From Dyella sp. M7H15-1 (GTDB lineage: Bacteria > Pseudomonadota > Gammaproteobacteria > Xanthomonadales > Rhodanobacteraceae): 64,000 bases of DNA. Positions within the stretch are counted from its first letter, which is position 1. Each line of letters starts with the position of its first letter. The DNA lies in assembly GCF_004114615.1 (NCBI RefSeq), contig NZ_CP035300.1:62001-126000 (forward strand), written 5' to 3'. Under the pieces are notes generated by a model. It worked only from the letters and a program-made list of their open reading frames with translations, did no database searches and was not told the origin of the DNA. Below are positions 9,487 through 53,317 of the stretch, piece by piece. The position numbers and the translations under genes are program-made.

Positions 9487-9541
9487 TGGTGCCTGGAGCG
9501 GGAATCGAACCCGCATGACCTTTCGGTCGAGAGATTTTAAG
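9487..9541 (-). pseudogene. 3' half of the disrupted chromosomal tRNA-Leu(UAA) gene
   Basis: Read on the minus strand this is an intact 3' half tRNA: anticodon loop CTTAAAA with anticodon TAA, 3' anticodon strand TCTCT, variable arm CGACCGAAAGGTCA, T arm GCGGG-TTCGATT-CCCGC, acceptor TCCAGGC, A73 and an encoded CCA. The sequence upstream of the loop is not tRNA: the 5' anticodon strand AGAGA is absent. The missing 5' half is at 53277-53317, and its acceptor strand GCCTGGA pairs perfectly with this one. The ICE has therefore cut the gene in its anticodon loop. Confidence 0.95.
9533..9541 (+). repeat. attL core, 9-bp direct repeat GATTTTAAG
   Basis: The same 9 bp occur at 53277-53285. They correspond to tRNA positions 32-40 (CTTAAAATC on the tRNA strand). 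To the left is the tRNA 3' half, to the right ICE sequence. Identity stops exactly at 9 bp on both sides. Confidence 0.92.
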
Positions 9542-9717
9542 CCAGAGCATGGCATCCGCACCGGGCTAACGCCTGACTTGGATGTGGCTTGCTGTAGCAG
9601 GTTTTCCTTCGGGCCAGAGCCTTCGATCATATCCCGGTGCGCGATGCAAACCGCCCCGGTTCCCTTTCGCTTGGCTCTTGGCCGGCTCCTGGAAATCGGG
9701 CCTTTCAGGAGCAGCAC

Positions 9718-10920
9718 ATGGCGAAGATCAAACTCACCAAGACCGTCGTTGACGCGGCGCAACCGCAGACCTGCGACCTCGAACTCCGGGACACGCTCGT
9801 TCCGGGCTTCTTGTGCAAGGTTACACCAACCGGCCACAAGGTTTTCATGCTTCAGTACCGCACGAACTCCGGCGTGCGGCGCAAACCCAAGCTCGGACAG
9901 TTCGGCGAACTGACCGTCGAGCAGGCCCGGTCGCTGGCGCAGGACTGGCTCGCCGAAATCCGGCGCGGCGGCGACCCCGGACAGGACAAGACCGAGGCCC
10001 GCAAGGCGCCAACAGTCAAGGAGCTGTGCGGACGGTTCATGGAGGATCACTCCAAGCTGCACAACAAGCCGAGCACGCAGAAAAGCTACCAGTACCAGAT
10101 CGACAACTTCATCGTTCCGGCCTTTGGTAGCAAGAAGGCCCACGAGGTCACGCGCCACGACATCACCGCGCTGATGAAGCGCATGGAGAAGTGCCCCACC
10201 CAGGCCAACCGCGTGCTGTCGCTCGCCCGCAAGATGTTCAACCTGGCCGAGCTTTGGGGCTATCGGCCTGACGGATCAAATCCTTGCCGCCACGTACCGA
10301 AGTACCCGGAGAAAGGCTCGACCCGCCTCATTACCGACGAGCAAATGGTCAGTCTGTTCGCCTACCTGGACAAAGCCGAGGCCGAGAGCCTGGAACATCC
10401 CATCCACCTGTTGGCCGTCCGGCTGCAATTCGAGTTCGCCGCGCGCATGTCGGAAGTCCTGCTGTTGCAGTGGGACTGGCTCGACCTGCCGAACGGCCGC
10501 GTCGTCTGGCCGGACAGCAAGACAGGCGATATGTCCAAGCCGTTGAGCGCCGAGGCTCGCCGGCTGCTGGAGAACGCGCCGCACTACGGCGATTCGCCTT
10601 ACGTCTGTCCGGCCATCCTCGACCACAGCAAGCCGCTCAGTTCCGGTTCCTACTACCACGCATGGCGGCGCATCCTCGATCGGGCCGGCGTGCCGAAGGT
10701 CGGCACCCACGGCATCCGTCACCGCTCGACGACCGACATTGCCAACTCAGGCATCCCGGTCAAGGTCGGCATGGCGCTGACCGCCCACAAGACCGTGGCG
10801 ATGTTCATGCGCTACGTCCACACCGAGGACGACCCGGTGCGCAAGGCGGCCGAGCTGGTGGCGACCCGGCGCAAGTCGGTGATCGGCCGCCGCAGGGAAC
10901 CGGAAAAGGTGGTCGCGTGA
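9718..10920 (+). CDS. int: Tyrosine recombinase (P4-type integrase)
   Basis: Start ATG 9718 follows TTTCAGGAGCAGCAC with a good ribosome binding site; 400 aa. The N-terminal ~100 residues are the arm-binding DUF4102-type domain of P4-like integrases (KVTPTGHKVFMLQYR, GQFGELTVEQAR), next comes a core-binding helical domain, and the C-terminal catalytic domain has R243 (FAARMSEVL), a lysine in DSKTGD, H331-x-x-R334 (THGIRHR), H357 and the nucleophile Y366 (MRYVHT). It lies about 180 bp inside attL, as is typical. It would cut the anticodon-loop core of tRNA-Leu(UAA) genes, integrating and, with an excision factor, excising the ICE. Confidence 0.95.
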   Translation: MAKIKLTKTVVDAAQPQTCDLELRDTLVPGFLCKVTPTGHKVFMLQYRTNSGVRRKPKLGQFGELTVEQARSLAQDWLAEIRRGGDPGQDKTEARKAPTVKELCGRFMEDHSKLHNKPSTQKSYQYQIDNFIVPAFGSKKAHEVTRHDITALMKRMEKCPTQANRVLSLARKMFNLAELWGYRPDGSNPCRHVPKYPEKGSTRLITDEQMVSLFAYLDKAEAESLEHPIHLLAVRLQFEFAARMSEVLLLQWDWLDLPNGRVVWPDSKTGDMSKPLSAEARRLLENAPHYGDSPYVCPAILDHSKPLSSGSYYHAWRRILDRAGVPKVGTHGIRHRSTTDIANSGIPVKVGMALTAHKTVAMFMRYVHTEDDPVRKAAELVATRRKSVIGRRREPEKVVA

Positions 10921-10995
10921 CCGGCCGCCGGATACCCGCTGCATCCGCCCCGGTGGTCGTGTCGTCGGGACGCCACTTTCAGTCATGGCAAAGTG

Positions 10996-11010
10996 TACCC
11001 GTTTCGGGTA
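10996..11010. promoter_or_regulatory. Palindromic operator upstream of the toxin-antitoxin pair
   Basis: TACCCG-TTT-CGGGTA is a perfect 6-bp inverted repeat with a 3-bp spacer, 16 bp before the toxin start. The XRE-type antitoxin encoded downstream probably binds it for autoregulation. Confidence 0.6.
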
Positions 11011-11026
11011 TAGTTTGGAGGTCGAG

Positions 11027-11410
11027 ATGACGCCCATCCTCAAGCGGAGGGACTTTGCGAAGTGGCAGGCGCGCGAAAGGTTGCCCGACGCCGCCTTGTG
11101 CAAGGCAGTCAAGGAGATGGAAAGCGGTCTGATCGACGCGGACTTGGGCGGCCTGCTCTACAAAAAGCGGGTAGCCCGTCCCGGCGGCGGCAAGAGCGGC
11201 GGCTATCGGACGCTTCTGTCGGCCCGGATCGGTAACCGCTACGTGTTCCTGCATGGGTTCGCCAAGAACGACAAGGCGAACATCACGGAGGACGAGAGGA
11301 AGGCGCTGCAATTCGCCGGCAAGGTGTTCCTGGACCTGACCGGGGAAGCGTTGACGAAGGCGTTGCAGTCGGGTGTTTTGGTGGAGGTGCATTGTGAGCA
11401 AGATCATTGA
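11027..11410 (+). CDS. Type II toxin, RelE/HigB-like
   Basis: Start ATG 11027 after TTTGGAGGTCGAG; 127 aa. The motifs GGGKSGGYRTLL and RYVFLHGFAKNDKANI followed by a helix (EDERKALQFAGKVF) match the RelE/ParE-like HigB2 toxin group, whose members cut mRNA on the ribosome. The reversed order, toxin first and HTH antitoxin second with overlapping genes, is the usual higBA layout. It probably stabilises the ICE by killing or arresting cells that lose it. The arginine and lysine residues normally used for RNA cleavage are plentiful, but I cannot assign individual catalytic residues. Confidence 0.8.
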   Translation: MTPILKRRDFAKWQARERLPDAALCKAVKEMESGLIDADLGGLLYKKRVARPGGGKSGGYRTLLSARIGNRYVFLHGFAKNDKANITEDERKALQFAGKVFLDLTGEALTKALQSGVLVEVHCEQDH

Positions 11411-11696: not shown

Positions 11697-11723
11697 TGCC
11701 CTGCAACGACGGAGACAGAGGCG

Positions 11724-12542: not shown

Positions 12543-12572
12543 CAATAAACGCCCCACACCGCCGGCGTTCAA

Positions 12573-13282: not shown

Positions 13283-14350
13283 TCACGTTATACGAGTTTT
13301 GTTGTACCAGCCACGCGAGCGATTGACCACGCGCACGACCAGCAGCATCACCGGCACCTCGATCAGCACGCCGACCACGGTGGCCAGCGCCGCGCCGGAG
13401 TGGAAGCCGAACAGGCTGATAGCCGCAGCCACGGCCAACTCGAAGAAGTTGCTCGCGCCGATCAGCGCGGAGGGACAGGCGATGTTGTGCTGTTCGCCGG
13501 CGCGGCGGTTGAGCCAGTAGGCAAAGCCGGAATTGAAGAACACTTGAATCAGGATCGGCGCGGCCAGCATGGCGATGACCAGCGGCTGTTGCAGGATGGC
13601 CTGGCCCTGGAAGGCGAACAGCAGCACCAGCGTCAGCAGCAGCGCCGCGATCGACAGCGGGCCGATGCGTGCCAGCGCAGCGTCGAACGCGGCCTGGCCG
13701 CGGCGCAACAGCGCACGGCGCCAGAGTTGCGCGACGATGACCGGAATGACGATGTAGAGCACCACCGAGGTCAACAGCGTGGCCCACGGCACGGTGATCG
13801 ACGACAGACCCAACAGCAGGCCGACGATGGGCGCGAAGGCGAACACCATGATGGTGTCGTTCAAGGCCACCTGCGACAGCGTGAAGATCGGATCGCCGCC
13901 GGTCAGCCGGCTCCAGACGAACACCATTGCCGTGCAGGGTGCGGCGGCGAGCAGAATCAGGCCCGCCACGTAGCTGTCCAGTTGCTCGGCCGGGAGCCAC
14001 GCCGCGAAGACGTGGCGAATGAAGACCCACGCCAGCAGCGCCATCGAGAACGGCTTGACCGCCCAATTTACGAATAGCGTCACACCGATGCCGCGCCAAT
14101 GCTGGCGCACCTGGCCGAGCGCGCTGAAGTCCACCTTGAGCAGCATCGGGATCACCATGACCCAAATCAGCGCGCCGACCGGCAGGTTGACCTGGGCCAC
14201 TTCCATACGGCCGATGGCTTGGAACCCGCTCGGCGCGAACTGGCCCAACGCGATACCGGCGACGATGCACAACAACACCCAAACCGTCAGGTATCGCTCG
14301 AAGGTGCTCATCGCGCCCGCCGGCGCGACGGTTTCCGCCCGTACGGCCAT
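13283..14350 (-). CDS. acr3: Arsenite efflux permease, ACR3 family
   Basis: An integral membrane protein with about ten hydrophobic segments. PVGALIWVMVIPMLLKVDF, LLAAAPCTAMVFVWSRLTGGDP and ACPSALIGASNFFELAVAAAI are ACR3 signatures; the cysteine in AAPCTAMVF is the conserved one needed for As(III) export. It pumps arsenite out of the cell using the proton gradient. ATG 14350 has GGTGAG at good spacing; a GTG at 14362 overlaps the arsC stop (GTGA) and would add four residues. Last gene of the arsR-arsI-arsC-acr3 operon. Confidence 0.95.
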   Translation of the reverse strand: MAVRAETVAPAGAMSTFERYLTVWVLLCIVAGIALGQFAPSGFQAIGRMEVAQVNLPVGALIWVMVIPMLLKVDFSALGQVRQHWRGIGVTLFVNWAVKPFSMALLAWVFIRHVFAAWLPAEQLDSYVAGLILLAAAPCTAMVFVWSRLTGGDPIFTLSQVALNDTIMVFAFAPIVGLLLGLSSITVPWATLLTSVVLYIVIPVIVAQLWRRALLRRGQAAFDAALARIGPLSIAALLLTLVLLFAFQGQAILQQPLVIAMLAAPILIQVFFNSGFAYWLNRRAGEQHNIACPSALIGASNFFELAVAAAISLFGFHSGAALATVVGVLIEVPVMLLVVRVVNRSRGWYNKTRIT

Positions 14351-14358
14351 GTGCGATC

Positions 14359-14856
14359 TCACCGCTGGCCGATGGCGCGCAGCTCACGCTGCAAGGACAT
14401 GGCATCGAGGCGCGGGAGCGGCAACGACAGGAACAGCTCGATGCGCCGGCGCAGCGTCACCGCGGCGTCCATGAACGCCTTGCGCTGCTGTTCCTCGCTG
14501 CCTTCGACGGCCGCCGGATCGGGCACGCCCCAATGCGCCGACACCGGCTTGCCTGGCCAGAACGGACAGGCTTCGCCGGCGGCGTTGTCGCAGACGGTGA
14601 AGATGAAGTCGAACACCGGCGCGCCCGGCGCCACGAACTCATCCCAGCTCTTGCTGCGATAGCCCGTCGTCGGCAGATGCAGGCGTTCCAGTGTGGCGAG
14701 TGCCAGCGGATGCACTTCGCCCTTCGGGTGACTGCCCGCCGAATAGGCATGGAAGCGGCCCTTGCCTAAGTCGTTGAGGATGCCTTCGGCAAGGATCGAA
14801 CGGGCCGAGTTGCCCGTACAGATGAACAGCGCGTTATAGGTGGTGTTGGTGGTCAC
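14359..14856 (-). CDS. arsC: Arsenate reductase, low-molecular-weight phosphatase type
   Basis: A 165-aa protein. The N-terminal P-loop is FICTGNSARS, where the cysteine is the arsenate-attacking nucleophile, and the conserved downstream segment is FDFIFTVCDNAAGEACPFWPG with the shuttle cysteines, as in thioredoxin-coupled ArsC. It reduces arsenate to arsenite for export by the Acr3 pump. Start codon GTG 14856, 12 bp after the arsI stop. The C-terminus extends about 20 residues beyond the common length. Confidence 0.93.
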   Translation of the reverse strand: MTTNTTYNALFICTGNSARSILAEGILNDLGKGRFHAYSAGSHPKGEVHPLALATLERLHLPTTGYRSKSWDEFVAPGAPVFDFIFTVCDNAAGEACPFWPGKPVSAHWGVPDPAAVEGSEEQQRKAFMDAAVTLRRRIELFLSLPLPRLDAMSLQRELRAIGQR

Positions 14857-14868
14857 GGAAGGCTCGCG

Positions 14869-15297
14869 TCAGCAGCAGGAACGGGATGTGGGCGCACAGC
14901 AGGCCGTGGCTGGCGCAATCGCTTCGTGGAAGACGGGGATGTTGCCGAGCGTGTGGAAGTGCTCCCAGGCCACGCCCTGAGGATCAGTAATCCAGTGCTT
15001 CTCGCTGCGTGCGTAGCAGCAGGTCGTGGTGCCTTCGTCGAGCAGCGTCATGTCGGCGGCCTGCGCCCGCGCCTTCAAGGCCGCCAGCTCGTCGGCGTCA
15101 TCGGTCTGAATGCCCAGGTGGTCGATACCTGGCTGGCTGCCGCGCGTGGAGATGGCGAAGTTCACCGGCGGGTCTTCGAGCATCCACTTCGCGTAGTCGC
15201 TCTCGATGCGCGTCGGCTGCACGGCGAACAGTTGGGAATAGAAGCCGATGCTGCGGTTCAGATCATCGACGTGCAGGTGGACGTGAAAACGCTTCAT
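14869..15297 (-). CDS. arsI: ArsI/CadI-family metalloenzyme (VOC fold, C-As lyase)
   Basis: A 142-aa vicinal-oxygen-chelate protein. HVHLHVDDLNRSIGFYSQLF is the first metal-binding strand, GIDHLGIQTDD the second, and WEHFHTLG supplies the last ligand. The vicinal cysteine pair in TTTCCYARSEKHW is the trivalent arsenical-binding feature of ArsI. ArsI enzymes cleave the carbon-arsenic bond of methylarsenite. The tail contains extra cysteines (ACCAPTSRSCC), possibly additional metalloid ligands. Start ATG 15297 follows AAAGGAGCTTCCC. It sits between arsR and arsC. Confidence 0.88.
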   Translation of the reverse strand: MKRFHVHLHVDDLNRSIGFYSQLFAVQPTRIESDYAKWMLEDPPVNFAISTRGSQPGIDHLGIQTDDADELAALKARAQAADMTLLDEGTTTCCYARSEKHWITDPQGVAWEHFHTLGNIPVFHEAIAPATACCAPTSRSCC

Positions 15298-15309
15298 GGG
15301 AAGCTCCTT

Positions 15310-15639
15310 TCAGCAGGTGGTGCAGGCGCGGGAAGTGGCGTTGACCTCGCACACACCGCCTTGGCAGCAGTGCTCGGTCAGGTAGCCGATCAGGCCGTTC
15401 ATGTGGCCGTACTCGGCGCGATAGATCAGGTTGCGGCCCTGTTGTTCGACCGTGATGAGGCCGGCGTGGGCCAGTTCTTTCAGGTGGAAGGACAAGGTGT
15501 TGCGGGCCACGTCGAGCTGGTCGGCCAGGACGCTCGGCATTAGTCCTTCCGGGCCGGCGACGACTAGGGCGCGGAACACGCGCAGTCGCTGGGTGTGGGC
15601 CAAGGCGCTCAAAGCGGAAACGGCTTGATCTTCGTTCAT
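15310..15639 (-). CDS. arsR: ArsR-family arsenic-responsive repressor
   Basis: A 109-aa winged-helix repressor: ALAHTQRLRVFRALVVAGPEGLMPSVLADQLD, then the recognition helix VARNTLSFHLKELAHAGLI. Cysteines near the end (TEHCCQGGVCEV, ACTTC) are likely As(III) ligands, placed as in the C-terminal-site ArsR group. The start is ATG 15639: a -10 like TATTAT at 15651-15646 puts the transcription start at or next to this codon, so the upstream candidate at 15657 would lie in the promoter and the mRNA is probably leaderless. It represses the ars operon through the overlapping palindrome. Confidence 0.9.
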   Translation of the reverse strand: MNEDQAVSALSALAHTQRLRVFRALVVAGPEGLMPSVLADQLDVARNTLSFHLKELAHAGLITVEQQGRNLIYRAEYGHMNGLIGYLTEHCCQGGVCEVNATSRACTTC

Positions 15640-15667
15640 GGTTCGATAATACAACAATTATTGAACC
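15640..15667 (-). promoter_or_regulatory. ars operon promoter and ArsR operator
   Basis: Imperfect palindrome GGTTCAATAAT...ATTATCGAACC spans the -10 (TATTAT) and ends directly at the arsR start codon. This is the usual place for autoregulation by ArsR. Confidence 0.7.
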
Positions 15668-24835: not shown

Positions 24836-24960
24836 CCGGCACAGGGTCGTTTTGCCTGCACTGCAAAACGACCCTCCGCACAAAGCATCGCTATCTTGAG
24901 ACTGCCTCCATCCGGCTGCGCTGGTGCCGCCGGCGCTTCTCACCGATGGAGGTTCACTCG

Positions 24961-25242
24961 ATGCGACCCGCACCCTTGCGGCCTGCTGCCGCTGCCGCCA
25001 CCACGCCCGCACAACCCCAACGCTACCTCACCAACGACGAAGCCGCCGAGTACCTGCGGCTGTCGCCGCGCACACTCGAAAAGCAGCGCGTGATCGGCGG
25101 CGGGCCGAAGTTCCGCAAGTTCGGCCGCCGCGTCATGTACGCGGTGGCCGACCTCGATGCCTGGGCCGACCAGCGCAGTTTCGAGGCTACGTCCGACCCC
25201 GAATATGCCGAGCATCACTCGGCCGACAGCCGTGCGCGCTGA
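24961..25242 (+). CDS. AlpA/MerR-type helix-turn-helix protein
   Basis: ATG 24961 has GGAGG at 8 bp. 93 aa. YLTNDEAAEYLRLSPRTLEKQRVIGGGPKFRKFGRRVMYAVADLDAWADQ is the compact HTH_17 fold shared by AlpA regulators and excisionases. It may be the recombination directionality factor needed for ICE excision, or a regulator of repA. Its stop overlaps the start region of repA. Confidence 0.85.
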   Translation: MRPAPLRPAAAAATTPAQPQRYLTNDEAAEYLRLSPRTLEKQRVIGGGPKFRKFGRRVMYAVADLDAWADQRSFEATSDPEYAEHHSADSRAR

Positions 25243-25256
25243 TCGGTGGCTCGCCG

Positions 25257-36585: not shown

Positions 36586-36806
36586 TCGTTGCCTATTCGT
36601 AAGAAACTTCGATCCCCCAACTCGATACGCCGCAATGCGCCGCCGCACGCGGCGTTTCTCCAATATTCGCCACTGCGCGAAATCTTGCTTTTTCCGCGAC
36701 TTTTCTTCCGATAACGGTCTTTGACCGGCCCTCGACCTGACTCCGATCCTCGCGTGTACGGCACGCCCTTGTGCCGCGTGTCGCACAGGAGAAAACGGAG
36801 GCGGAG

Positions 36807-38810: not shown

Positions 38811-39271
38811 GCCAGTACCGCCTCAACTTGTTCATTCCGCACGAGCATGCCAAGCGCCTCGACGAACTGGCCGCGAAGAAAGGCGTATCGAAGTCATCCA
38901 TCGTCGCGGCGGCGCTGGCGTCATGGCTGTCACCCGATGCGGGCGACCAGCGTGAGGCTGCCATCGCCAAGCGGCTCGACCGGCTGACGCGCCAGTTCGA
39001 GAAGTTGGAGCGCGACCAGAACATCGAGATCGAGACGCTGGCGCTGTTCGTTCGCTACTTCCTGACGGTCAGCACGCCGATTCCCGAGGCCCACCAGGAT
39101 GCGGCCCGAGCGCAGGGCAAGGCACGTTTTGAGCAGTTCGTCGAACAGCTCGGCCGCCACTTGATGCGCGGTCGCAGCCTCGTGCGTGACGTGGTGGAGG
39201 AACTGAATCCCGACACCGCGCGACTGGACGACGCGGCGGCGCTGGCCACAGCCCAGGAGCGTGCGACATGA
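38807..39271 (+). CDS. CopG-like ribbon-helix-helix protein
   Basis: ATG 38807 overlaps traG. 154 aa. MSQYRLNLFIPHEHAKRLDELAAKKGVSKSSIVAAALASWL is a CopG/MetJ DNA-binding fold; the rest is helical (EIETLALFVRYFLTV). Always found between traG and trbB in Tn4371-like ICEs, it may regulate the trb operon or act as an auxiliary transfer factor. Confidence 0.88.
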   Translation: MSQYRLNLFIPHEHAKRLDELAAKKGVSKSSIVAAALASWLSPDAGDQREAAIAKRLDRLTRQFEKLERDQNIEIETLALFVRYFLTVSTPIPEAHQDAARAQGKARFEQFVEQLGRHLMRGRSLVRDVVEELNPDTARLDDAAALATAQERAT

Positions 39272-40296
39272 GCGCGCAACCGCAGTCCTTCGCCGTTACG
39301 TCGCTCGACCGGCGCATCCGCATGTTGCGCACGGCGATGGGGCCGCTGATCGCCGCCGCGTTGGAAGACCCGGACGTGGTGGAAATCATGCTCAACCCCG
39401 ACCGCACGCTGTGGGTCGATCGCCTGTCGTCGGGTCGAGCACCGATGGGTGCAGAGCTGTCCGAGGAAGATGGCGAACGCATCATCCGCCTGGTCGCCGC
39501 GCACGTCGGCGCGGAAGTGCATCGCGGCCAGCCGCTGCTGACCGCCGAGCTGCCCGAAACCGGCGAACGCTTCGAGGGCATCCTGCCACCGGCAGCGCCA
39601 GGACCGGCCTTCGCGCTGCGCAAGCGCGCGGTTGGCGTCATTCCGCTGGATCGCTACATCACCGATGGAATGATGAGCGTCGAGCAGGCCGCGTTCCTGC
39701 GCGACGCTGTACGCGAGCGCCAGAACATCCTCATCGCCGGCGGCACCAGCACCGGCAAGACCACGCTCGCCAATGCCTTGCTCGCAGAGATCGCCGCTAC
39801 CGGCGACCGCGTGCTGGTGCTCGAAGACACGGTGGAACTGCAATGCGCGGCACGCGACCACGTACCTCTGCGCACGCGCGCTGGCGTCGTGTCGATGACC
39901 GAGCTGGTGCGCGCCACGATGCGTTTGCGCCCTGACCGGGTGATCGTCGGCGAGGTGCGCGGCGGCGAGGCGCTGGATCTCATCAAGGTGTGGGGCACCG
40001 GCCATCCCGGAGGCATCGCCACGATCCACGCCGGTTCCGCACCGGGCGCGCTGCTGCGCCTGGAGCAACTGATCCTCGAAGTCGCGGTGAACCCGCCGCG
40101 GGCGCTGGTCGCCGAAGCGGTCAACGTCGTCATTCACATCGCCGGCCGCGGCCGGCGCCGTCGCATCGAAAGCATCGCCCGCGTCCTCGGTTTCGACGGC
40201 GTGGGCTACCGCCTCGCGGACGCGCTGGAGCCACCGCCGCATCCAGAGCTGCCGCTCCCTTTCCCGAACCCCAACCACCTTGGAGAACTGCCATGA
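39268..40296 (+). CDS. trbB: TrbB, VirB11-type ATPase
   Basis: ATG 39268 overlaps the CopG-like gene. 342 aa. Walker A IAGGTSTGKTTLANALL (K164), the Asp box LVLEDTVELQC, and RPDRVIVGEVRGGEALDLIKVWGTGHPGG for Walker B and the His box. A hexameric cytoplasmic ATPase that powers pilus assembly and DNA transfer. Confidence 0.96.
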   Translation: MSAQPQSFAVTSLDRRIRMLRTAMGPLIAAALEDPDVVEIMLNPDRTLWVDRLSSGRAPMGAELSEEDGERIIRLVAAHVGAEVHRGQPLLTAELPETGERFEGILPPAAPGPAFALRKRAVGVIPLDRYITDGMMSVEQAAFLRDAVRERQNILIAGGTSTGKTTLANALLAEIAATGDRVLVLEDTVELQCAARDHVPLRTRAGVVSMTELVRATMRLRPDRVIVGEVRGGEALDLIKVWGTGHPGGIATIHAGSAPGALLRLEQLILEVAVNPPRALVAEAVNVVIHIAGRGRRRRIESIARVLGFDGVGYRLADALEPPPHPELPLPFPNPNHLGELP

Positions 40297-40676
40297 CGCA
40301 GATGCACGCCGCTGCTTTCCGCTTTTCCGTAAATCCGGCTTCCATCCCCGTGCGTCTGCGCCGCCTAGCGGCACCGGCGCACCGCGGCCTGCTGTCGGCG
40401 GCCGTCATGCTGATGACGGCTGGCACGGCGCAGGCCGCCGGCTCCTCGATGCCGTGGGAAGGCCCGCTGCAATCCATCCTCGAATCCATCCAGGGGCCGG
40501 TCGCGCGCATCGTCGCCGTCATCATCATCATCGCCACTGGCCTTGCGCTGGCCTTCGGCGACACGTCGGGCGGCTTCCGCAAGCTCATCCAGATCGTGTT
40601 CGGCCTGTCCATCGCATTCGCGGCGTCGAGCTTCTTCCTGTCGTTCTTCAGCTTCTCCGGCGGTGCCGTCGTATGA
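40293..40676 (+). CDS. trbC: TrbC, conjugative pilin precursor
   Basis: ATG 40293 overlaps trbB. 127 aa. Long signal peptide ending in TAQAAGSSMPW and two hydrophobic helices (IVAVIIIIATGLALAFG, IVFGLSIAFAASSFFLSFF), the VirB2 layout. Processed and probably cyclised by the TraF-like peptidase at 27772 to form the pilus subunit. Confidence 0.94.
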   Translation: MTQMHAAAFRFSVNPASIPVRLRRLAAPAHRGLLSAAVMLMTAGTAQAAGSSMPWEGPLQSILESIQGPVARIVAVIIIIATGLALAFGDTSGGFRKLIQIVFGLSIAFAASSFFLSFFSFSGGAVV

Positions 40677-40942
40677 GTACGGCCACCGATCTGCCGGGTT
40701 TCGAGGTGCCGCTGCATCGCTCGCTGACCGAGCCGATCCTGCTGGGCGGCGCACCGCGCACCGTGGCGATCGCCAACGGCACGCTCGCCGCCGCCGTGGG
40801 CCTGGGCCTGCAACTGTGGATTCCCGGCGTCGTGCTCTGGGTCGTTGGTCATTCGCTGGCCGTGTGGGGCGCGCGTGTCGATCCGCAGTTCATGCAGGTG
40901 TTCGCCAAGCACCTCAAGCACAAGCCGCTGCTGGACGTGTGA
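40673..40942 (+). CDS. trbD: TrbD, VirB3-like
   Basis: ATG 40673 overlaps trbC. 89 aa with one or two membrane helices. PGFEVPLHRSLTEPILLGGAPR and ARVDPQFMQVFAKHLKHK are conserved in TrbD. An inner-membrane part of the secretion channel working with TrbE. Confidence 0.94.
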   Translation: MSTATDLPGFEVPLHRSLTEPILLGGAPRTVAIANGTLAAAVGLGLQLWIPGVVLWVVGHSLAVWGARVDPQFMQVFAKHLKHKPLLDV

Positions 40943-40957
40943 CGGGAGGCCGCCGCG

Positions 40958-43408
40958 ATGCTCAACCTCGCCGAATACCGCCAGCGACCGGCCTTGCTTG
41001 CCGACTGGCTGCCGTGGGCTGGCCTTGTCGCGCCCGGCCTCGTGCTGAACAAGGATGGTTCGTTCCAGCGCACGGCACGGTTCCGTGGCCCCGACCTCGA
41101 CAGCGCGACGCAAGGCGAGCTGATCGCCACCACCGCGCGACTGAACAACGCGCTGCGCCGGCTTGACGCCGGCTGGGCGCTGTTCGTCGAAGCCGAGCGC
41201 CGGCCGGCAGCCGACTATCCGCGCTCGGATTTCCCAGAGCCGCTGTCGTGGCTGGTGGACGAGGAACGCCGCGCGACCTTCGAGGAATCGGGAAACCACT
41301 TCGAGAGCGGCTATCACCTCACGCTGCAATACCTGCCGCCGGAGGAATCCCGCGCCCGCGCGGCCAAGCTGTTGTACGAGAACACGCCGACCGCTGGCGT
41401 GGACTGGCGCGAACGCCTGACCGCATTCGTCGCGGAAACCGGCCGCATCTTCGATCTGCTCGACGGCGTGATGCCGGAAATCGACTGGCTCGACGACGCC
41501 GAAACGCTGACCTACCTGCATGCGACCGTTTCGACGCAACGCTATCGCGTCGGCGTGCCGGCAGTGCCGTTCCATCTCGACGCGCTGCTGGCCGACGTGC
41601 CGCTGATCGGTGGGCTCGCGCCAATACTCGGTGATGCACACCTGCGCGTCGTGACGGTGCGCGGATTCCCGACCTCGACCTGGCCGGGGATTCTGGACGA
41701 CCTCAATCGGCTCGGTTTCGCGTATCGCTGGAGCACGCGCTTCCTCTGCATGGACAAGGCCGAAGCCGAAAAGGAACTCGGCCGCCTGCGCCGGCAGTGG
41801 TTCGCCAAGCGCAAGAACGTCCTCGCACTGCTGCGCGAAACGATCTTCCAGCAGGAAAGCCCATTGGTCGATACCGACGCGAGCAACAAGGCCACCGACG
41901 CCGACGCCGCGATGCAGGAGCTGGGCAGCGATCAAGTCGCCTTCGGTTTCGTCACCGCGACCGTGACGGTGCTTGATACCGACGCCGACACGGCCGACGA
42001 GAAGCTGCGCATGGTGGAGCGCGCGATTCAGAGCCGGGGCTTCGTGACCATCCACGAAACCCTTAATTCCGTAGAGGCGTGGCTGTCGTCGATCCCCGGC
42101 AACGCTTACGCCAATGTGCGTCAGCCCATCATCTCCACGCTGAACCTCGCGCACCTGACGCCGGTGTCGGCGGTCTGGGCTGGGCCGGAAAAGAATGAGC
42201 ATCTCGACGGCCCGCCGCTGATCGTTACCCGCACCGATGGCGCGACGCCGTTCCGGCTGGTGACGCACATCGGCGACGTCGGCCACACGCTGATTGCCGG
42301 TCCGACCGGCATGGGCAAGTCCGTGCTGCTCGCCACGCTGGCGATGCAGTTCCGGCGTTATCCCGGTTCGCGCATCTTTGCATTCGACATGGGCCGCTCG
42401 ATGCGCGCAACGGCGCTAGGCCTGGGCGGAGAGTATTACGACCTCGGCGCCGATGGCGCGATCGCGTTCCAGCCGCTCGCGCGCATCGACCACGAGGGTT
42501 ATCGCACATGGGCCGCCGAATGGGTCGAAGGCCGCCTGTCGCACGAAGGCGTCGCCCTCGGACCCGACGAGAAGGCGGCCGTATGGTCGGCGCTTGGCAG
42601 CCTCGCCAGCGCGCCGGTCGAACAGCGCACGCTCACCGGCCTGTCGGTACTGCTGCAATCGAATGCACTGCGTCAGGCGCTCGCGCCGTATGTGCTCGGC
42701 GGTGCACACGGCAAGCTGCTCGATGCTGATCACGACCGGCTCGGCGCGGCCGACGTGCAGTGCTTCGAGATGGAGGAGTTGATGCACAGCAAGGCCGCAG
42801 TGCTGGCCGTGCTGGGCTACCTGTTCGCGCGCTTCGATGAGCGTTTCGACGGGGCACCGACCCTGCTGATCCTCGACGAGTCGTGGCTGTTCCTCGATGA
42901 CCCGGTGTTCGCGGCGCGCATTCGCCAGTGGCTCAAGACGCTGCGCAAGAAGAACGTCAGCGTCATCTTCGCCACGCAGTCGCTCGCGGACATCAAGGAT
43001 TCGACCATCGCGCCGGCGATCATCGAGAGCTGCGCCAGCCGCATCTTCCTGCCGAACCCGCAGGCCACCGAACCGCAGATCCGCACGATCTACGAAGGCT
43101 TCGGCCTCAACAGCCGGCAAATCGAGATCGTCGCCACCGCGCAGCCCAAGCGCGACTACTACTACCAATCCCGCGCAGGCAATCGCCTGTTCGACCTCGA
43201 CCTGGGGCCGGTCGCGCTCGCGTTCGCGGGTGCCTCGACGCCCCAAGACCAGCGCGCCATCGACGACGTGCTGACCGACGCCGGAGCACCGGGGTTCGCC
43301 GGCGCCTGGCTGCGTCACCGCGGCCTCGATTGGGCGGCCGACCTGCTGCCGTCCGCGCCATCCGCCGCGTCCTTCCTCGCTCCCCAACCACAGGAGATTT
43401 CGCCATGA
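40958..43408 (+). CDS. trbE: TrbE, VirB4-type ATPase
   Basis: ATG 40958; 816 aa. Walker A AGPTGMGKSVLLATLAMQF (K454), Walker B LLILDESWLFLDDPVF, and VIFATQSLADIKDS. The largest ATPase of the channel, conserved in all type IV secretion systems, needed for pilus assembly. Full length, with no frameshift. Confidence 0.96.
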   Translation: MLNLAEYRQRPALLADWLPWAGLVAPGLVLNKDGSFQRTARFRGPDLDSATQGELIATTARLNNALRRLDAGWALFVEAERRPAADYPRSDFPEPLSWLVDEERRATFEESGNHFESGYHLTLQYLPPEESRARAAKLLYENTPTAGVDWRERLTAFVAETGRIFDLLDGVMPEIDWLDDAETLTYLHATVSTQRYRVGVPAVPFHLDALLADVPLIGGLAPILGDAHLRVVTVRGFPTSTWPGILDDLNRLGFAYRWSTRFLCMDKAEAEKELGRLRRQWFAKRKNVLALLRETIFQQESPLVDTDASNKATDADAAMQELGSDQVAFGFVTATVTVLDTDADTADEKLRMVERAIQSRGFVTIHETLNSVEAWLSSIPGNAYANVRQPIISTLNLAHLTPVSAVWAGPEKNEHLDGPPLIVTRTDGATPFRLVTHIGDVGHTLIAGPTGMGKSVLLATLAMQFRRYPGSRIFAFDMGRSMRATALGLGGEYYDLGADGAIAFQPLARIDHEGYRTWAAEWVEGRLSHEGVALGPDEKAAVWSALGSLASAPVEQRTLTGLSVLLQSNALRQALAPYVLGGAHGKLLDADHDRLGAADVQCFEMEELMHSKAAVLAVLGYLFARFDERFDGAPTLLILDESWLFLDDPVFAARIRQWLKTLRKKNVSVIFATQSLADIKDSTIAPAIIESCASRIFLPNPQATEPQIRTIYEGFGLNSRQIEIVATAQPKRDYYYQSRAGNRLFDLDLGPVALAFAGASTPQDQRAIDDVLTDAGAPGFAGAWLRHRGLDWAADLLPSAPSAASFLAPQPQEISP

Positions 43409-49021: not shown

Positions 49022-49060
49022 TCCCACTGCTGCGGCTCCAAGACCCTGGTGACGTCGTTC

Positions 49061-50794
49061 CTAGAGTTGATGCCCTTGCAGTAAGACGGTTGGAGTGAAC
49101 ATATCGCAAAGCATCAGCACATGATGCCTGGCACGGGTGATACCAACTCGCGCCAGTTTGCGACAACGAGGGTGAGGCGCAGCCTCTTGAGTGAAAAGCA
49201 GAGGACTGCTGTTCGGGTCATCGAAGATGATTGCTGCGTCGAACTCCTTGCCTTTCGACTTGTGAATGGTCATGACGTGGATGCCCCTCAAGTCATTGCC
49301 ACCCGACAAGAGCTGATCTTCGGCTATGGCCGCATCAAGTGCGCCACGCGCATTTCGATATGCTCCCTGCGTTTGCCAGAGTTCGGTCAGTGCTGCTGAG
49401 ATACGGCGGCCACGCTGGAACGCGACAAGCTGTTCGGCATCTTCTGCTATGGCTTGAAACGAGTTGGCACCAGCATTGCGAAGGATGCTGCGCGCATCCA
49501 GCCAATCCCGCTTCGGGTCGCCAGTGAACTCGTGGGTGCGCAATAGACGTACCGCAGCTAGGAGCTTGGATGCCACTCCATTAGCGCGTGGGGAAGTACC
49601 GCCGCGGCTTTGTACGGCGCTTGCTACCAACCGCTGTGCGGTGGCTAGATTGGTATTTCCGCCGCGTGCTCGGAAAACCGTCGCAGCAAGATCGAGTCCA
49701 TCGGCCAAGTCCAGCAATTCCTCCGCTACGGGCCTGCGCGGTTCCAGCATAAACGCGACCATGCGACTCGAAAGCAGAACAGATGCTTCGTCGATCATCA
49801 CCCGATGCGGGATCAAGTTCGTGCCGTCGCCAGTCAGAGCACGGGAGATGACATTGACTCCGCGCCCCCATGTTGCCAGTACCGCAAGACTCTCGATGTC
49901 GCCTTGGGCGGCTTCCTTTGCACGTTGAATGGCGATGCCGATTGCTTGGCGGATCGCCCGATCACGGTACTCCCGGTTGGCGCGATAGTTCATCCGTGAT
50001 ACACCCCGGTACGCCGCACCTCTTGGCGTGTTCAATAGCACGTCGTTGGCGAAGGCGACGATTTCCGAATTTGGACTTCGGTGATTCTCGCCGGCCAGAT
50101 CCACCCGCAGCGGTTGCAACGCGGCCATGATGTGCGTCACTCGGTCTGAGCTAACGCCAGGCCGGAAGTCGTAAATCTGTTGGTCCAAGTCGGCGAGGCA
50201 CATCATTTGCGTGCCAGCGGATAGCAGTCGAACACATTGCCACTGATCTTCAGCGGTGTCTTGCGCCTCATCTACAACGATCAACGGATAGCACGACGAA
50301 AACAACTCGCGCAGGCGTGCGCTTCGAGACAGTAGTTCGTGAGCCTTCGGAGCAAACAGGTCGAATGCGACTCTCCCTGTTTCCTGAAATAACCGTTCGC
50401 GCTCGATGTCCCAATCACCGCCATTGCTCTCGAACTCGTGCCGCATTGCCGCCTCGTCGTGGGGCATCAGAAGACGCAACGACCGCGGTGCGCCCAGCAG
50501 GTATCCATAAGCCTGCAAGATGCGCCAGAAGAACGAGTGGAAAGTCTGGATTGAGAGCTTTCCTTGCAAGGCGGCAGGCAACTGCGTCTTGCTCGCTTCA
50601 GCGACGCGCGCTACAGCGGCACGCGAGAAGCTGAGAAACAGAACAGACTGACCAGGTGACAGGCCCCGTTCGATGACGAGTCTGGCCTTAGCCAAAGCGA
50701 TGGTCGTCTTGCCGCTGCCTGGGCCACCCGTAACGAGGATCGCGCCGTTCTCGTCGAGAATGCTCTGTCGCTGCGCGCAGATGACCAGGGCCAC
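49061..50794 (-). CDS. gajB: UvrD-like helicase, GajB-type (Gabija)
   Basis: GTG 50794, 4 bp after the gajA stop. 577 aa. Superfamily 1A helicase: Walker A VTGGPGSGKTTIALAKARLV (K29), LFLSFSRAAVARV, LIVVDEAQDTAEDQW, motif III CLADLDQQIYDFRPG, and the C-terminal VMTIHKSKGKEFDAAII plus GITRARHHVLM. Paired with an OLD-type nuclease, this is the composition of Gabija (GajA+GajB) or a related class 2 OLD system. GajB is thought to sense DNA ends or strands exposed during phage infection. Slightly longer than the 494 aa of the first described GajB. Confidence 0.85.
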   Translation of the reverse strand: MALVICAQRQSILDENGAILVTGGPGSGKTTIALAKARLVIERGLSPGQSVLFLSFSRAAVARVAEASKTQLPAALQGKLSIQTFHSFFWRILQAYGYLLGAPRSLRLLMPHDEAAMRHEFESNGGDWDIERERLFQETGRVAFDLFAPKAHELLSRSARLRELFSSCYPLIVVDEAQDTAEDQWQCVRLLSAGTQMMCLADLDQQIYDFRPGVSSDRVTHIMAALQPLRVDLAGENHRSPNSEIVAFANDVLLNTPRGAAYRGVSRMNYRANREYRDRAIRQAIGIAIQRAKEAAQGDIESLAVLATWGRGVNVISRALTGDGTNLIPHRVMIDEASVLLSSRMVAFMLEPRRPVAEELLDLADGLDLAATVFRARGGNTNLATAQRLVASAVQSRGGTSPRANGVASKLLAAVRLLRTHEFTGDPKRDWLDARSILRNAGANSFQAIAEDAEQLVAFQRGRRISAALTELWQTQGAYRNARGALDAAIAEDQLLSGGNDLRGIHVMTIHKSKGKEFDAAIIFDDPNSSPLLFTQEAAPHPRCRKLARVGITRARHHVLMLCDMFTPTVLLQGHQL

Positions 50795-50797
50795 GGC

Positions 50798-52633
50798 TTA
50801 CAGCCCCTCGGGGGCACCGGCCGGGGCTGTGTTGTCACCGGCCGCGTCTGCCCCGGCGTCGGCCTGCGCAGCAGGTGCTTCCTTGCGCTTCGGCTTTGGG
50901 TAGCGTTGATAGATGTCAGCGAGGAAGTCGGTAATGGTTTTTGGCAGCTCTGCCACAGCACACAGTTGCAACAGCTTTGCCGCGCCGCCTTCGCCTTTCA
51001 GGCCCTTCAACGTGGAAATGGTCAACTTGCGTAATTCGTCGTCAGCAGGGCGGGCTACTGGAATCCCAAACCGGCCATCGGCGTCCTCCGCGCGCAGGGC
51101 CTCTAAATACTGCCATTGCCGATCCAAGGGGGCTTCCTCGGCCATCAGCACTTCGGCGCCTTTTTGCTGGATTTCTTTGGCTACCACGTAGTTGCCCTGC
51201 AAGGTGGCAATTTCCGCGTCCGTACGCTTCTTGCGATCGAAGAAGGCAAAGGCCGGTGTCCCGATTTCCTTGAAGAAGGCCCCCAACTTTTCCAGATTTC
51301 CGTCGCCGTCGGCATTGATGACAGACAGACCGGCTACGTCCAACGCGAACAGGGCCGGGTCACTGTCTTCCATCTTCTGCGCGACCACCAACAAGGCATC
51401 CTGTTCGGTGATGCCTTCACCGACGATCACGCCTTGGCCAAGCATGGCTTCGGCGATGGCTCGACGAAAGTTCTGTCGGTAGTTCTTGGCCTTCATACCG
51501 GCCGGCAGCTTGATCGCCGTGCCGCTCAGCGTGCCGTGTTCGTCGCGGTTGAGCTTCAGTATCCCGTCAGGCTCGAAACGCTCGATGACGTAGGGAGAAT
51601 GCGATGTAACGAAGCACTGCGAAGTTTCTTCGAGCAGATAGTTCGCAATCCGCCGCTGTGTATGGGGAGGAAGGGCAATCTCGGGTTCTTCCATCGCAAA
51701 GATGACGTTGTCTTTCTTGAGGTCGGCGATGAACGTCAGCAGCGCAAGCAGGAGCGTGTTTAATGTTCCGCTACCGGCCTGTTGGAACGGGACGGCTTCC
51801 TCCCCACGCCCCATCGTCAGAAAGAAAGCGATGGTCTTCCGCAGGTGCTCGCGCGTGAGCTGGGAGACGAACAGACGGGTCGAGCGCCCCTCGCTACCGG
51901 GCGCGATGTATTCCGCCAGCCGTGTCTCGATTTCATCAAGGATCGGCCCCAGCTCAGTAGCGTCGGCGTCTATGGGTGGATCAAGGGCGGCCAGGCGCTG
52001 GCGAATGCTCTCCCACATTCCCTTGCGGGCTTCTTTCATGCGCAGGATGTTGTCGAGCAGCGTGCCGCGCTCCAGGCTCAACGCACGCGAGCCGGTGCGG
52101 ATGGTACGCAGGTAAAGGAAGCCTATCGCTCGCTTGACCTTGGTGGGAATGGACCTGGGATCAGCGTCGTCATCGTCGTCGCTTCGGCCATAGATCGTCT
52201 TGGCGAAAAACTGGTCTTCTTCGATGTCGTATTGGGCGACGGTAATCAAGCGAAGGCAGAGTTCCACGTTGGGATCATCGGCGTTGCCAATCTCGCCTTC
52301 GCCGAGAACCCGCTTGTCGGTCTTGTGCCAGAACTCTAGGTTGGCGGCGCAGAGCTTCTTGATATCGTCGGTGAGATCGACGAGGACGACTTCGATGCGG
52401 ATAGGAACGGGCGTTTCGCCATCTTCGTTCAGATAGCCGGCATTGCGGAAATCGAACTCCTCAACGGGAGGTGTTCGATTCAGGCGGTCCGGTCCAAGAA
52501 CGAGATCGAGTGCTTCGCAGATCGTGCTCTTGCCGACGTTGTTGCCGCCGATCAGGAGCGTATGCCCTGAGAAGTGAAGTTCCGCTTTCTTGATGCCGCG
52601 GAAGTTCTCTATCCCCAACCGTGAGACGCGCAT
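50798..52633 (-). CDS. gajA: OLD-family nuclease, GajA-type (Gabija)
   Basis: ATG 52633; 611 aa. The N-terminal ABC-type ATPase has Walker A LLIGGNNVGKSTICEALDLV (K35), the signature-like FQQAGSGTLNTLLLALLTF and Walker B VIFAMEEPEIALPP. The C-terminal TOPRIM nuclease has VIVGEGITEQDALLV (catalytic Glu) and SVINADGDGNLEKLG (the DxD metal site). GajA cuts DNA at specific sites when nucleotide levels drop during phage replication. A low-complexity Ala-rich tail ends the protein. It lies just inside the right ICE end, a common cargo position. Confidence 0.87.
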   Translation of the reverse strand: MRVSRLGIENFRGIKKAELHFSGHTLLIGGNNVGKSTICEALDLVLGPDRLNRTPPVEEFDFRNAGYLNEDGETPVPIRIEVVLVDLTDDIKKLCAANLEFWHKTDKRVLGEGEIGNADDPNVELCLRLITVAQYDIEEDQFFAKTIYGRSDDDDDADPRSIPTKVKRAIGFLYLRTIRTGSRALSLERGTLLDNILRMKEARKGMWESIRQRLAALDPPIDADATELGPILDEIETRLAEYIAPGSEGRSTRLFVSQLTREHLRKTIAFFLTMGRGEEAVPFQQAGSGTLNTLLLALLTFIADLKKDNVIFAMEEPEIALPPHTQRRIANYLLEETSQCFVTSHSPYVIERFEPDGILKLNRDEHGTLSGTAIKLPAGMKAKNYRQNFRRAIAEAMLGQGVIVGEGITEQDALLVVAQKMEDSDPALFALDVAGLSVINADGDGNLEKLGAFFKEIGTPAFAFFDRKKRTDAEIATLQGNYVVAKEIQQKGAEVLMAEEAPLDRQWQYLEALRAEDADGRFGIPVARPADDELRKLTISTLKGLKGEGGAAKLLQLCAVAELPKTITDFLADIYQRYPKPKRKEAPAAQADAGADAAGDNTAPAGAPEGL

Positions 52634-52756
52634 GATGCCCCCAAGAGTCCTTGCTGTTGTTGTTACGGCTACATGGTCGCCTTGCTTCCTTCATCTTCCA
52701 GACTGCTGCACGCTCCCGGTAGCTTGTCGAAAGATAAAGCATCGTCGAGCATTCAC

Positions 52757-52791
52757 AACAAAAGCCGCCGCTGCGTGAGCAGCGGCGGCTT
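52757..52791 (-). terminator. Rho-independent terminator of the replacement tRNA-Leu
   Basis: On the minus strand AGCCGCCGCTGC and GCAGCGGCGGCT form a perfect 12-bp stem with a TCAC loop, followed by TTTGTTGT, starting 8 bp after the encoded CCA. Confidence 0.88.
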
Positions 52792-52797
52792 GCAAAC

Positions 52798-53114
52798 TGG
52801 TGCCCGAGGCCGGAATCGAACCGGCACGCCTTTCGGCGAGGGATTTTCTTCCCACTTCGGCTTTCGCCGCCGTCCTGACAGTCGCAGGACGTTCGTGGTC
52901 TGGAGCACGCCTTCACCATAGCCTTGCGGCCGTAGGTGCCCGCCGTCTGCTCTCTACACCTTCCCAAGCGAGAGCTTGGGCTTGGCTCGGCGTTGGCTCG
53001 GACACCGAGGCATCCAGGGCTTTCGCCGACTTTGACGGGCTTCACTTCGGGCGTTTCCCCCCGAAGGCTCAAATTGTTCAAGTCCCTTGTGTCTACCGAT
53101 TTCACCACTCGGGC
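52798..53114 (-). tRNA. Replacement tRNA-Leu(UAA), interrupted by a group I intron
   Basis: The 5' exon (53114-53080) is GCCCGAG-TG-GTG-AAATCGGTAGA-CAC-A-AGGGA-CTT and the 3' exon (52847-52798) is AAAA-TCCCT, variable arm CGCCGAAAGGCGT, T arm GCCGG-TTCGATT-CCGGC, acceptor CTCGGGC, A73 and CCA. Joined, they give an 85-nt class II tRNA with loop CUUAAAA and anticodon UAA; all stems pair. Acceptor and anticodon stems differ from the disrupted chromosomal copy, so it is not a simple duplicate. The intron lies between U34 and A35. The gene is carried by the ICE, points the same way as the destroyed tRNA, and would restore UUA decoding. Confidence 0.95.
52848..53079 (-). ncRNA. Group I self-splicing intron in tRNA-Leu (Azoarcus-like, IC3)
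   Basis: 232 nt with no open frame for a homing endonuclease. The 5' splice site follows CUU; an internal guide GAG (in UUUGAGCC) pairs with it, giving the usual U-G wobble at the splice site. The last base is the conserved G. Core elements, in order: GTCAAAGTCGGCGAAAGCC, AACGCCGAGCCAAG, GAAGGTGTAGAGAGCAGACGG, GGCTATGGTGAAGGC and TGCTCCAG. These follow the Azoarcus tRNA-Ile intron almost word for word as I remember it. P7 is GAGCA (52952-52948) with TGCTC (52907-52903); the Azoarcus intron has a compensated GACUA/UAGUC here. The position U34/A35 equals that of cyanobacterial and plastid tRNA-Leu(UAA) introns. Confidence 0.92.
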
Positions 53115-53276
53115 GTAGTGCGATGCGCTGGAAGCTCCTATCTCAAGTTCTGGTGGCGCCTAGCTGGCCCCTGACCACCAAGCCAAGCCGTGAAGCTGCG
53201 CCTTGGATGCCAGCAAGCCGTTGTCACTATTAGCGTTCTGGCAGGTTAGCGCAAGCAGGAAAGACTTGACAAAACT

Positions 53277-53285
53277 GATTTTAAG
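53277..53285 (+). repeat. attR core, 9-bp direct repeat GATTTTAAG
   Basis: Identical to 9533-9541. ICE sequence lies to the left, the tRNA 5' half to the right. The same nine bases would arise at the exon junction of the intron-containing tRNA gene at 52798-53114 if the intron were absent. Confidence 0.92.
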
Positions 53286-53317
53286 TCTCTTGCGTCTACC
53301 AATTTCGCCATCCAGGC
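53277..53317 (-). pseudogene. 5' half of the disrupted chromosomal tRNA-Leu(UAA) gene
   Basis: Minus strand: acceptor GCCTGGA, D arm GCG-AAATTGGTAGA-CGC, anticodon 5' strand AGAGA and loop CTTAAAA, then TC and a switch to ICE sequence (AGTTTTGTC). The expected TCTCTCGACC continuation is at 9533 and below. Without it no anticodon stem can form, so any transcript from here cannot fold into a tRNA. Confidence 0.95.

Follow-up and report, generated by a model that had tools for sequence, protein, structure and literature searches.

In the stretch of Dyella sp. M7H15-1 DNA analyzed here (NZ_CP035300.1, positions 62,001-126,000; the window, 64,000 nucleotides long, in whose numbering all positions are given), a 43.7-kb element, assigned below from its gene content to the integrative and conjugative elements (ICEs), interrupts the intron-free host tRNA-Leu(UAA) gene at a 9-bp core in the anticodon loop. 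It carries near one end a complete tRNA-Leu(UAA) gene of its own, into which a group I intron is inserted. Sequence comparisons make it, in our judgment, very probable that the ICE cuts a single-copy tRNA-Leu(UAA) gene, supplies its own copy and hides that copy from its integrase by means of the intron, these three taken jointly. The most unusual point is the position of the intron, which lies inside the recombination core of the integrase itself.

The split host gene and its replacement

The two host halves, when fused at the 9-bp core, gave a perfect 87-nt tRNA-Leu(UAA) with paired acceptor strands (GCCTGGA/TCCAGGC) and anticodon stem (AGAGA/TCTCT). The core common to both ends, and used as attB, is CTTAAAATC, within tRNA-Leu; homology is limited to these 9 bp, and neither attL nor attR reconstitutes a tRNA. 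Along the minus strand, the host 5' half (53317-53277) is followed by about 160 nt of the element, then by the replacement tRNA (53114-52798), the element body, the integrase end and the host 3' half (9541-9487). The initial annotation, made from the letters of the window, had placed both halves and their shared core at these positions, had held that neither junction rebuilds a tRNA, and had described a complete tRNA-Leu(UAA) just inside attR; fusion of the halves and inspection of both junctions bore this out, and the complete gene was located at 52798-53114 on the minus strand. That the intron of this gene falls within the recombination core is not mentioned in the initial annotation. An assembly artefact was considered and rejected, the same structure recurring in independent genomes.

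The host assembly consists of one 3.52-Mb contig, in which a covariance scan gave 47 tRNA hits, all fetched and typed. No second tRNA-Leu(UAA) was found among these hits, whose leucine anticodons were CAA, UAG and CAG only; a tRNA-Leu(UAA) gene pattern matched only the split 5' half in the host genome, and a wider pattern for the uninterrupted gene gave 0 matches there. A second intact copy elsewhere was the outcome on which the break-and-replace reading of the initial annotation might have failed, and that reading was strengthened both by this whole-genome search and by the relatives described below. Under standard wobble a CAA tRNA cannot read UUA codons, which by mechanical calls of open reading frames (ORFs) account, in the window, for 9 of 599 leucine codons beyond the element and for 24 of 1282 within it. 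In the family search, all 15 other genomes of the host genus had an uninterrupted tRNA-Leu(UAA), and at the search threshold none of the 15 matched the intron tRNA.

The replacement tRNA gene, hereafter the cargo, escapes default scans: ARAGORN run without introns returned 0 tRNAs and Rfam at gathering score 0 matches, the intron reaching 33.2 bits (E 1.2e-6) against RF00028, under the gathering score of 50. Among 66 cargoes examined by script, the exon-intron junction was CTT/AAAATC in 53 UAA cargoes and CTC/AAAATC in 11 CAA cargoes (64/66 in total), while the remaining two (G039, G297) were misparsed by ARAGORN rather than intronless. The intron ended in a 3' terminal G in all 64 parsed cargoes. 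In group I introns a U usually ends the 5' exon, forming the U-G pair at the 5' splice site, and this U was found in the window and in 53/53 parsed UAA cargoes. Of the 52 consensus pairs, 22 show compensatory changes (27 introns; 0/500 shuffles as high), a sign that the intron structure is under selection, the consensus structure having been taken from the covariation alignment itself, which biases the count in its favor.

Of 40 cargoes measured, 39 lie 160-199 nt from the host 5' half and one lies 315 nt from it. Since the cargo lies near attR on the strand of the host 5' half, which is presumably still behind the host gene's own promoter, that promoter could read through about 160 nt into the same-strand cargo, and expression of the cargo would then come from the host promoter. 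A strict scan revealed no sigma-70-like promoter around the host 5' half or the cargo in the window.

Break, replacement and proposed shielding

The sequence shows that the ICE, by means of its tyrosine integrase, has entered the anticodon loop of tRNA-Leu(UAA), cutting at the 9-bp core and rebuilding neither end; we propose that the element's own tRNA-Leu(UAA), some 160 nt inside attR, makes up for the loss of the host gene. The intron between U34 and A35 splits CTTAAAATC in DNA and may thereby hide the cargo from the integrase that the element encodes, whether the element is in its circular form or further copies of it arrive. An intronless replacement would probably serve as a target both for the attP of the element itself and for copies arriving later. 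Self-splicing would restore the replacement tRNA at the RNA level. Excision at the core would restore the host gene, so that clean loss of the element would be non-lethal and loss of the cargo alone lethal; the addiction of the host suggested in the initial annotation would hold for the latter event and not for the former. In Castellaniella (G011) the host gene that was cut and the spliced cargo agree at 82/85 positions, with an unbroken stretch of 49 identical nt across the core, which means that sequence divergence does not protect the cargo there; this case supports the view that, near the core, target and spared copy differ in nothing but the intron.

Relatives with the same integrase

Integrase relatives were taken as the best 80 of 272 loci from one scan. 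Within the clade 84-91% identical to the window integrase, 36 of 39 loci adjoin a tRNA-Leu(UAA) 3' half, the exceptions lying inside a coding sequence (L060), at another site (L089) and at a contig end (L091), and according to record titles the hosts span alpha-, beta- and gammaproteobacteria. The 38 clade genomes searched (L090, a second record of the same organism, was left out) contained a close copy of the intron tRNA in 30 cases, all 30 typed as Leu(UAA) with the intron at 35/36; in one of these (G007) the element lies within a coding sequence and not in a split tRNA, and an intact gene is present. The initial annotation had asked whether the integrase always travels with an intron-bearing tRNA-Leu, and such a tRNA was found in the 30 genomes and in none of the other eight. 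The acceptor stems of attL and attR paired 7/7 in all 29 testable half-pairs, against 269 of 812 cross-pairs between genomes; the 29 include the window, and G002 (unread bases), G007 (secondary site) and G039 (68% integrase, core unparsed) were dropped. Given this pairing and the uncut gene of the 15 congeners, the split is not due to chance.

Integrase distances correlated with cargo distances (r 0.46; 0/5000 permutations as high) and with those of the cargo exons alone (r 0.26; 58/5000 permutations), while r was -0.12 for integrase against host tRNA, and several introns were identical between distant hosts. The integrase-cargo correlation and the identical introns thus point to a cargo that travels with the element.

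UAA and CAA cargoes in the host family

Among 233 genomes of the host's family, the host's own included, 30 had an intron-tRNA match, and typing resolved two kinds, UAA and CAA: 22 genomes had a UAA cargo, six a CAA cargo only and two (G112, G121) a fragment only. By pattern search, none of the 22 UAA-cargo genomes had an intact tRNA-Leu(UAA), their single pattern match (G238) being a split 5' half that runs into the element, whereas the intact gene was present in 6/6 CAA-only genomes and in both fragment genomes. This decisive count used a wider pattern that, as a control, recovered 4/4 known D-loop-variant genes. In a first family survey 82 of the 233 genomes gave no match, which created the impression of many genomes with neither an intact gene nor an intron tRNA. 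A looser pattern run on 79 of the 82 (G000, G183 and G269 omitted) gave three matches, that in G238 being the split 5' half, and BLAST on a sample of 22 genomes without cargo match found intact genes with D-loop variants in 21 and another intron tRNA in G297, so that for the genomes sampled the impression did not hold.

In the intron tree the CAA cargoes fall into a single clade with support of 96/99 (the bootstrap of that tree is not fully settled), and they adjoin a split tRNA-Leu(CAA) wherever a host half was found. The anticodon of the cargo equaled that of the broken gene in all 40 of the 66 scripted cargoes with a host 5' half upstream (35 UAA, 5 CAA), these being related sequences and not 40 independent events.

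In four genomes (G161, G171, G247, G253) a decayed host 5' half was found near the cargo, with alignment scores of 40-84 as compared to at most 27 over 200 shuffles of the G253 upstream stretch, and around eight UAA copies (G075, G087, G089, G091, G212, G241, G261, G299) no host 5' half could be recognized within 420 nt. The motif TACGAT stands 60 nt (G241) and 139 nt (G261) before the intron tRNA, and also precedes the host half in the window, G236, G237 and G238. Downstream of the cargo, no integrase relative was detected in stretches of 60-80 kb for two G089 copies and the G161 copy, nor in 20 kb around that of G087, and G184 had just a partial integrase match of 25% identity some 64 kb from the cargo. 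Some relatives hence appear to have lost the element and yet kept the intron tRNA, which is the sole tRNA-Leu(UAA) found in the genomes with a decayed or absent host 5' half. These relic genomes are the best evidence that the intron tRNA splices and works. Where it is the only tRNA-Leu(UAA) found, hosts seem to stay dependent on it even after the element has gone.

Other integrases, a phage and control genomes

The pairing of a split tRNA with an intron-bearing one seems to recur with other integrases. In G040 an element of about 28 kb splits the host tRNA-Leu(UAA), with an intron-split tRNA-Leu(UAA) directly following; the integrase of this element is 26% identical over 89 residues to that of the window. 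Gordonia phage Daredevil carries about 570 bp from its integrase gene an unannotated tRNA-Lys(UUU) with a group I intron (NC_048021.1 41820-42131; L307:1340-1651); this intron, 238 nt long, lies between CTT and TTAA at the same place of the anticodon loop, and the gene scored 119.9 bits with our purpose-built covariance model R1 whereas Rfam gave no intron match. According to excerpts of its description, Daredevil integrates into tRNA-Lys-TTT, which is not rebuilt, and lacks a tRNA of its own, although one figure legend names tRNA-Ile2-CAT; its plaques are clear (PMC10865867). Because of the clear plaques and an odd-looking T-loop, the intron-bearing tRNA of Daredevil may be non-functional.

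On these comparisons we lean slightly towards a more general proposal, namely that group I introns could serve as DNA-level shields for mobile elements. Such an intron would split the integrase core within the replacement tRNA gene, so that an element can carry the gene that it targets, would block self-recombination and re-integration, and would be erased by splicing in the RNA. The arrangement would have arisen with different kinds of integrase and different tRNAs (Leu-UAA, Leu-CAA and phage Lys-UUU) and would leave hosts permanently dependent on a tRNA with an intron.

As a genome-wide finder RF00028 was insensitive (8/53 genomes, most known positives missed), and model R1 outperformed it. 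The control set for R1 consisted of 26 genomes with sibling integrases at T-rich sites, 66-69% identical to the window integrase. Their sites, e.g., TTTTTTAT, are of the sort in the attB list excerpted from PMC2789088. Most loci of this identity range (L093 to L133) lie directly after terminator-like hairpins with T runs, suggesting intrinsic terminators as putative targets of the sibling integrases. Five others (L092, L095, L101, L106, L109), with integrases 67-68% identical, adjoin a tRNA-Leu(CAA) 3' half, GATTTTGAGCC; in the fifth CAA-targeting genome, G040, the UAA cargo lies in another element.

Group I introns were also seen in other tRNAs with no linked integrase in view, at L178/L304 (G012), L175 and L297 (G049), the tRNAs being Met/Ile-like CAU, Arg CCT and one called Gln by ARAGORN. 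An Acinetobacter plasmid (L172:3995-4292) holds an apparently complete, unannotated intron tRNA-Leu(UAA), named otherwise by ARAGORN, whose neighbors are an AAA-ATPase gene and a predicted aac(3)-IId; the intron tRNA has a match in 1280 of 72,556 plasmid records, 1275 of them at least 99% identical, and in 635 of 5426 E. coli genomes. Our guess is that this plasmid gene marks an origin in an element of the present kind.

Points against the proposal and alternative explanations

Several observations weigh against the reading of break, replacement and shielding. In 11/11 CAA cargoes the 5' exon ends in C and not in the usual group I U. Eight of the 38 clade genomes had no detectable cargo (G001, G017, G020, G022, G023, G028, G036, G037), and one metagenome-assembled genome (MAG), G015, holds both a cargo at the split gene and an intact gene. 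In two of the eight an intact gene was found (G036, with the element at a secondary site, and the MAG G022), and six (G001, G017, G020, G023, G028, G037) had neither cargo nor intact gene in the assembly. The initial annotation had singled out the same integrase without tRNA cargo in copy-less hosts as damaging to its case; the six genomes show this configuration, for which contigs absent from the assemblies are the most likely reason, five being MAGs and the sixth a short-contig draft. Four CAA-targeting loci (L095, L101, L106, L109) had no convincing intron cargo in G041-G044, G042 giving a weak hit. In the R1 control, 7 of the 26 genomes had a match at E <= 0.01: a tRNA-Arg (G049), a weak non-Leu match (G068), Leu(UAA) with no host half within 300 nt (G053, G056, G061), two Leu(CAA), one of them beside a host half (G066), and a separate Leu(UAA) arrangement (G070). 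The contrast between cargo and control genomes is thus unclean, control genomes also holding such genes. In G070 (L293) the intron-split tRNA-Leu(UAA) is about 200 bp from an oppositely oriented UAA 3' half.

Other observations against shielding speak at the same time for its main alternative, in which the replacement holds but the intron is a passenger, the cargo having been captured from a lineage with an intron-bearing tRNA-Leu and introns and integrases both favoring the anticodon loop. Intron-bearing tRNAs untied to an integrase occur (tRNA-Arg in G049, tRNA-Met/Ile-like in G012), and tRNA-Leu(UAA) introns are, from the excerpted text, common in cyanobacteria (PMC4476775). Copies with no element visible alongside retain the intron too, so that persistence alone does not show shielding. 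The phages with tRNA-dependent lysogeny are described, in the excerpts of PMC10865867, with no mention of tRNA introns, and the intron would therefore not be strictly needed. Against a passenger, the intron lies inside the core in 64 of the 66 cargoes (the other two being those misparsed) and with two anticodons, it recurs with the very different integrase of G040 and with another amino acid in a phage, and G011 shows that the intronless sequence is a usable target. We consider the passenger explanation possible, with odds clearly below even.

That the intron tRNA is a resident host gene beside which the element inserted by chance would agree with the family genomes in which no element is seen near it; its distribution, absent from 15/15 congeners at the search threshold and with identical introns in distant hosts, contradicts this reading, as does the nearly fixed distance between cargo and attR, and it was rejected as very improbable. 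It is still less probable that the two host halves, whose stems are intact in the window, make a trans-spliced functional split tRNA with the cargo dispensable: bacteria are not known to possess enzymes for joining split tRNAs, and the intron tRNA is the sole copy found in relatives with decayed or absent host 5' halves. An ordinary tRNA-targeting ICE, with a junction that rebuilds the tRNA or a redundant copy that covers its loss, as excerpts describe for other tRNA-Leu ICEs such as ICEApl1 (PMC4908127), was likewise rejected with near certainty, only 9 bp being shared, both junctions being broken and the genome-wide search contradicting a redundant host tRNA-Leu(UAA).

Relation to known systems

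The closest known system is the tRNA-dependent lysogeny of actinobacteriophages (Fionnbharth, Gaia and others), published in 2024, in which an element-borne tRNA replaces the split one and, according to the same excerpts, anticodon-loop att sites are common in mycobacteriophages (PMC10865867). The other strategy attributed to the element by the initial annotation is right in that the tRNA is replaced rather than rebuilt; it was already known in principle from these phages. The features of that system recur in the window: a short core rebuilding neither junction, no other host copy found, and a cargo tRNA-Leu(UAA) that matches the broken gene, with the anticodon agreeing in 40/40 cargoes. The phage system is one of Actinobacteria phages with no intron mentioned in the excerpts, whereas here an ICE of Pseudomonadota has an intron in the core; moreover, Fionnbharth's tRNA is described as having its own promoter, while here the tRNA lies close to the junction, on the same strand as the host gene (PMC10865867). 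The Dyella element carries conjugation genes and is not a temperate phage; it works like the phage system without being lysogeny.

Among ICEs, those of the ICEHin1056/ICEApl1 type and ICEMh1 also enter tRNA-Leu(UAA) or the anticodon loop of the tRNA-Leu for UUG, but in the excerpted accounts they leave a complete tRNA-Leu (altered, or one functional) at the junction and no intron-bearing replacement is described (PMC4908127; PMC6861422). ICEApl1 lies in tRNA-Leu(TAA) with 66-bp repeats and several gene copies (excerpts of PMC4908127), and the main target of ICE_KKS102_4677 is given in an excerpt as a tRNA-Leu gene (PMC9960961). Among the entries listed in a search of openly licensed papers, represented mostly by titles and the beginnings of abstracts, none reports an ICE that brings a replacement tRNA or an att core that contains an intron.

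The cyanobacterial introns are taken to be in resident genes, whereas here the intron travels within the replacement gene of a mobile element. In cyanobacterial tRNA-Leu the intron position is U34/A35, and group I introns also occur in bacterial tRNA-Ile and tRNA-Arg. A tRNA-Leu(UAA) intron was reportedly found in a gammaproteobacterium by Vepritskiy and others in 2002. As far as the excerpts describe them, the tRNA-Leu(UAA) group I introns of cyanobacteria are alike in being small, free of ORFs and in the anticodon loop (PMC4476775). The strategy of breaking and replacing a tRNA is therefore known, and the new part is its ICE version, possibly with a new role for group I introns.

Gene content of the element

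The features of the window are collected in Table 1. The integrase, RPA, ParA, TraG and TrbB/TrbE-like proteins together lead us to class the element, on predicted gene content, as an ICE with a Tn4371-like backbone. Excerpts on the Tn4371 family (PMC2789088) list the same backbone of integrase, replication/ParA, TraG and trb-type transfer genes, and all of RPA, ParA, TraG, TrbB-like and TrbE-like were found here. The family attB (TTTTTC/TAT; published Tn4371 attB, TTTTTCAT) is not the one used, the attB of the element being CTTAAAATC in tRNA-Leu, and we therefore write Tn4371-like and do not file the element as a member, for which the excerpted definition is an integrase with >70% protein homology to IntTn4371 (PMC2789088). 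The family also differs from the present element in that here the target is a tRNA-Leu anticodon loop and a tRNA is carried.

Table 1. Features of the window, with position, strand and remarks
Feature	Position	Strand	Remarks
Host tRNA-Leu(UAA) 3' half, attL side	9487..9541	-	CCA at 9487-9489; cut in anticodon loop
Recombination core (9 bp) GATTTTAAG at attL	9533..9541	-	
Tyrosine integrase (arm-binding, SAM-like and catalytic domains), directly inside attL	9718..10917	+	Start codon uncertain
Arsenic-resistance-like genes: SBF-family transporter, low-molecular-weight phosphatase, glyoxalase, helix-turn-helix regulator	13283..15657	-	Pfam
Replication initiator protein A (RPA)	24924..26105	+	Pfam
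ParA-like ATPase	26359..26997	+	Pfam
TraG/VirD4-type coupling protein	36771..38810	+	Pfam
Type IV secretion system ATPase (T2SSE/TrbB-like) and TrbE-like	39268..43408	+	Pfam matches at 39268-40296 and 40958-43408
GajB (Gabija defence)	49061..50794	-	E 1.6e-205
GajA (Gabija defence)	50798..52633	-	E 1.1e-235
Terminator-like hairpin directly after replacement tRNA	52762..52791	-	Pattern match only
Replacement tRNA-Leu(UAA), complete, CCA encoded	52798..53114	-	ARAGORN with introns; spliced form folds
Group I intron, 232 nt, between U34 and A35 (CTT/AAAATC)	52848..53079	-	Splits att core sequence
Spacer, host 5' half to replacement tRNA, all same strand	53115..53276	-	
Host tRNA-Leu(UAA) 5' half, attR side	53277..53317	-	
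Recombination core (9 bp) CTTAAAATC at attR	53277..53285	-	

The adjacent gajA and gajB form a Gabija pair next to the replacement-tRNA end of the element. Further ORFs up to 48797 are assumed to be trb-like from their position only, and the arsenic role of the genes at 13283-15657 is inferred. A RelE-like toxin with a helix-turn-helix partner (10985-11693) lies beside the integrase, and an LA2681-type HEPN protein is encoded at 16556-18109. In another genome, a 3' fragment resembling tRNA-Cys (G000:C1, about 146270-146330; L051) is possibly another integration scar.

Significance

The break-and-replace strategy for tRNA genes would hereby extend from phages to conjugative elements of alpha-, beta- and gammaproteobacteria. 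Replacement tRNAs can escape default tRNA scans, and elements said to lack the cognate tRNA, Daredevil among them, may need re-examination. The small group I introns of bacteria, usually treated as neutral passengers, are offered a testable function, and the distribution of the cargoes suggests a route by which intron-bearing tRNA-Leu genes may spread between bacterial classes and become fixed.

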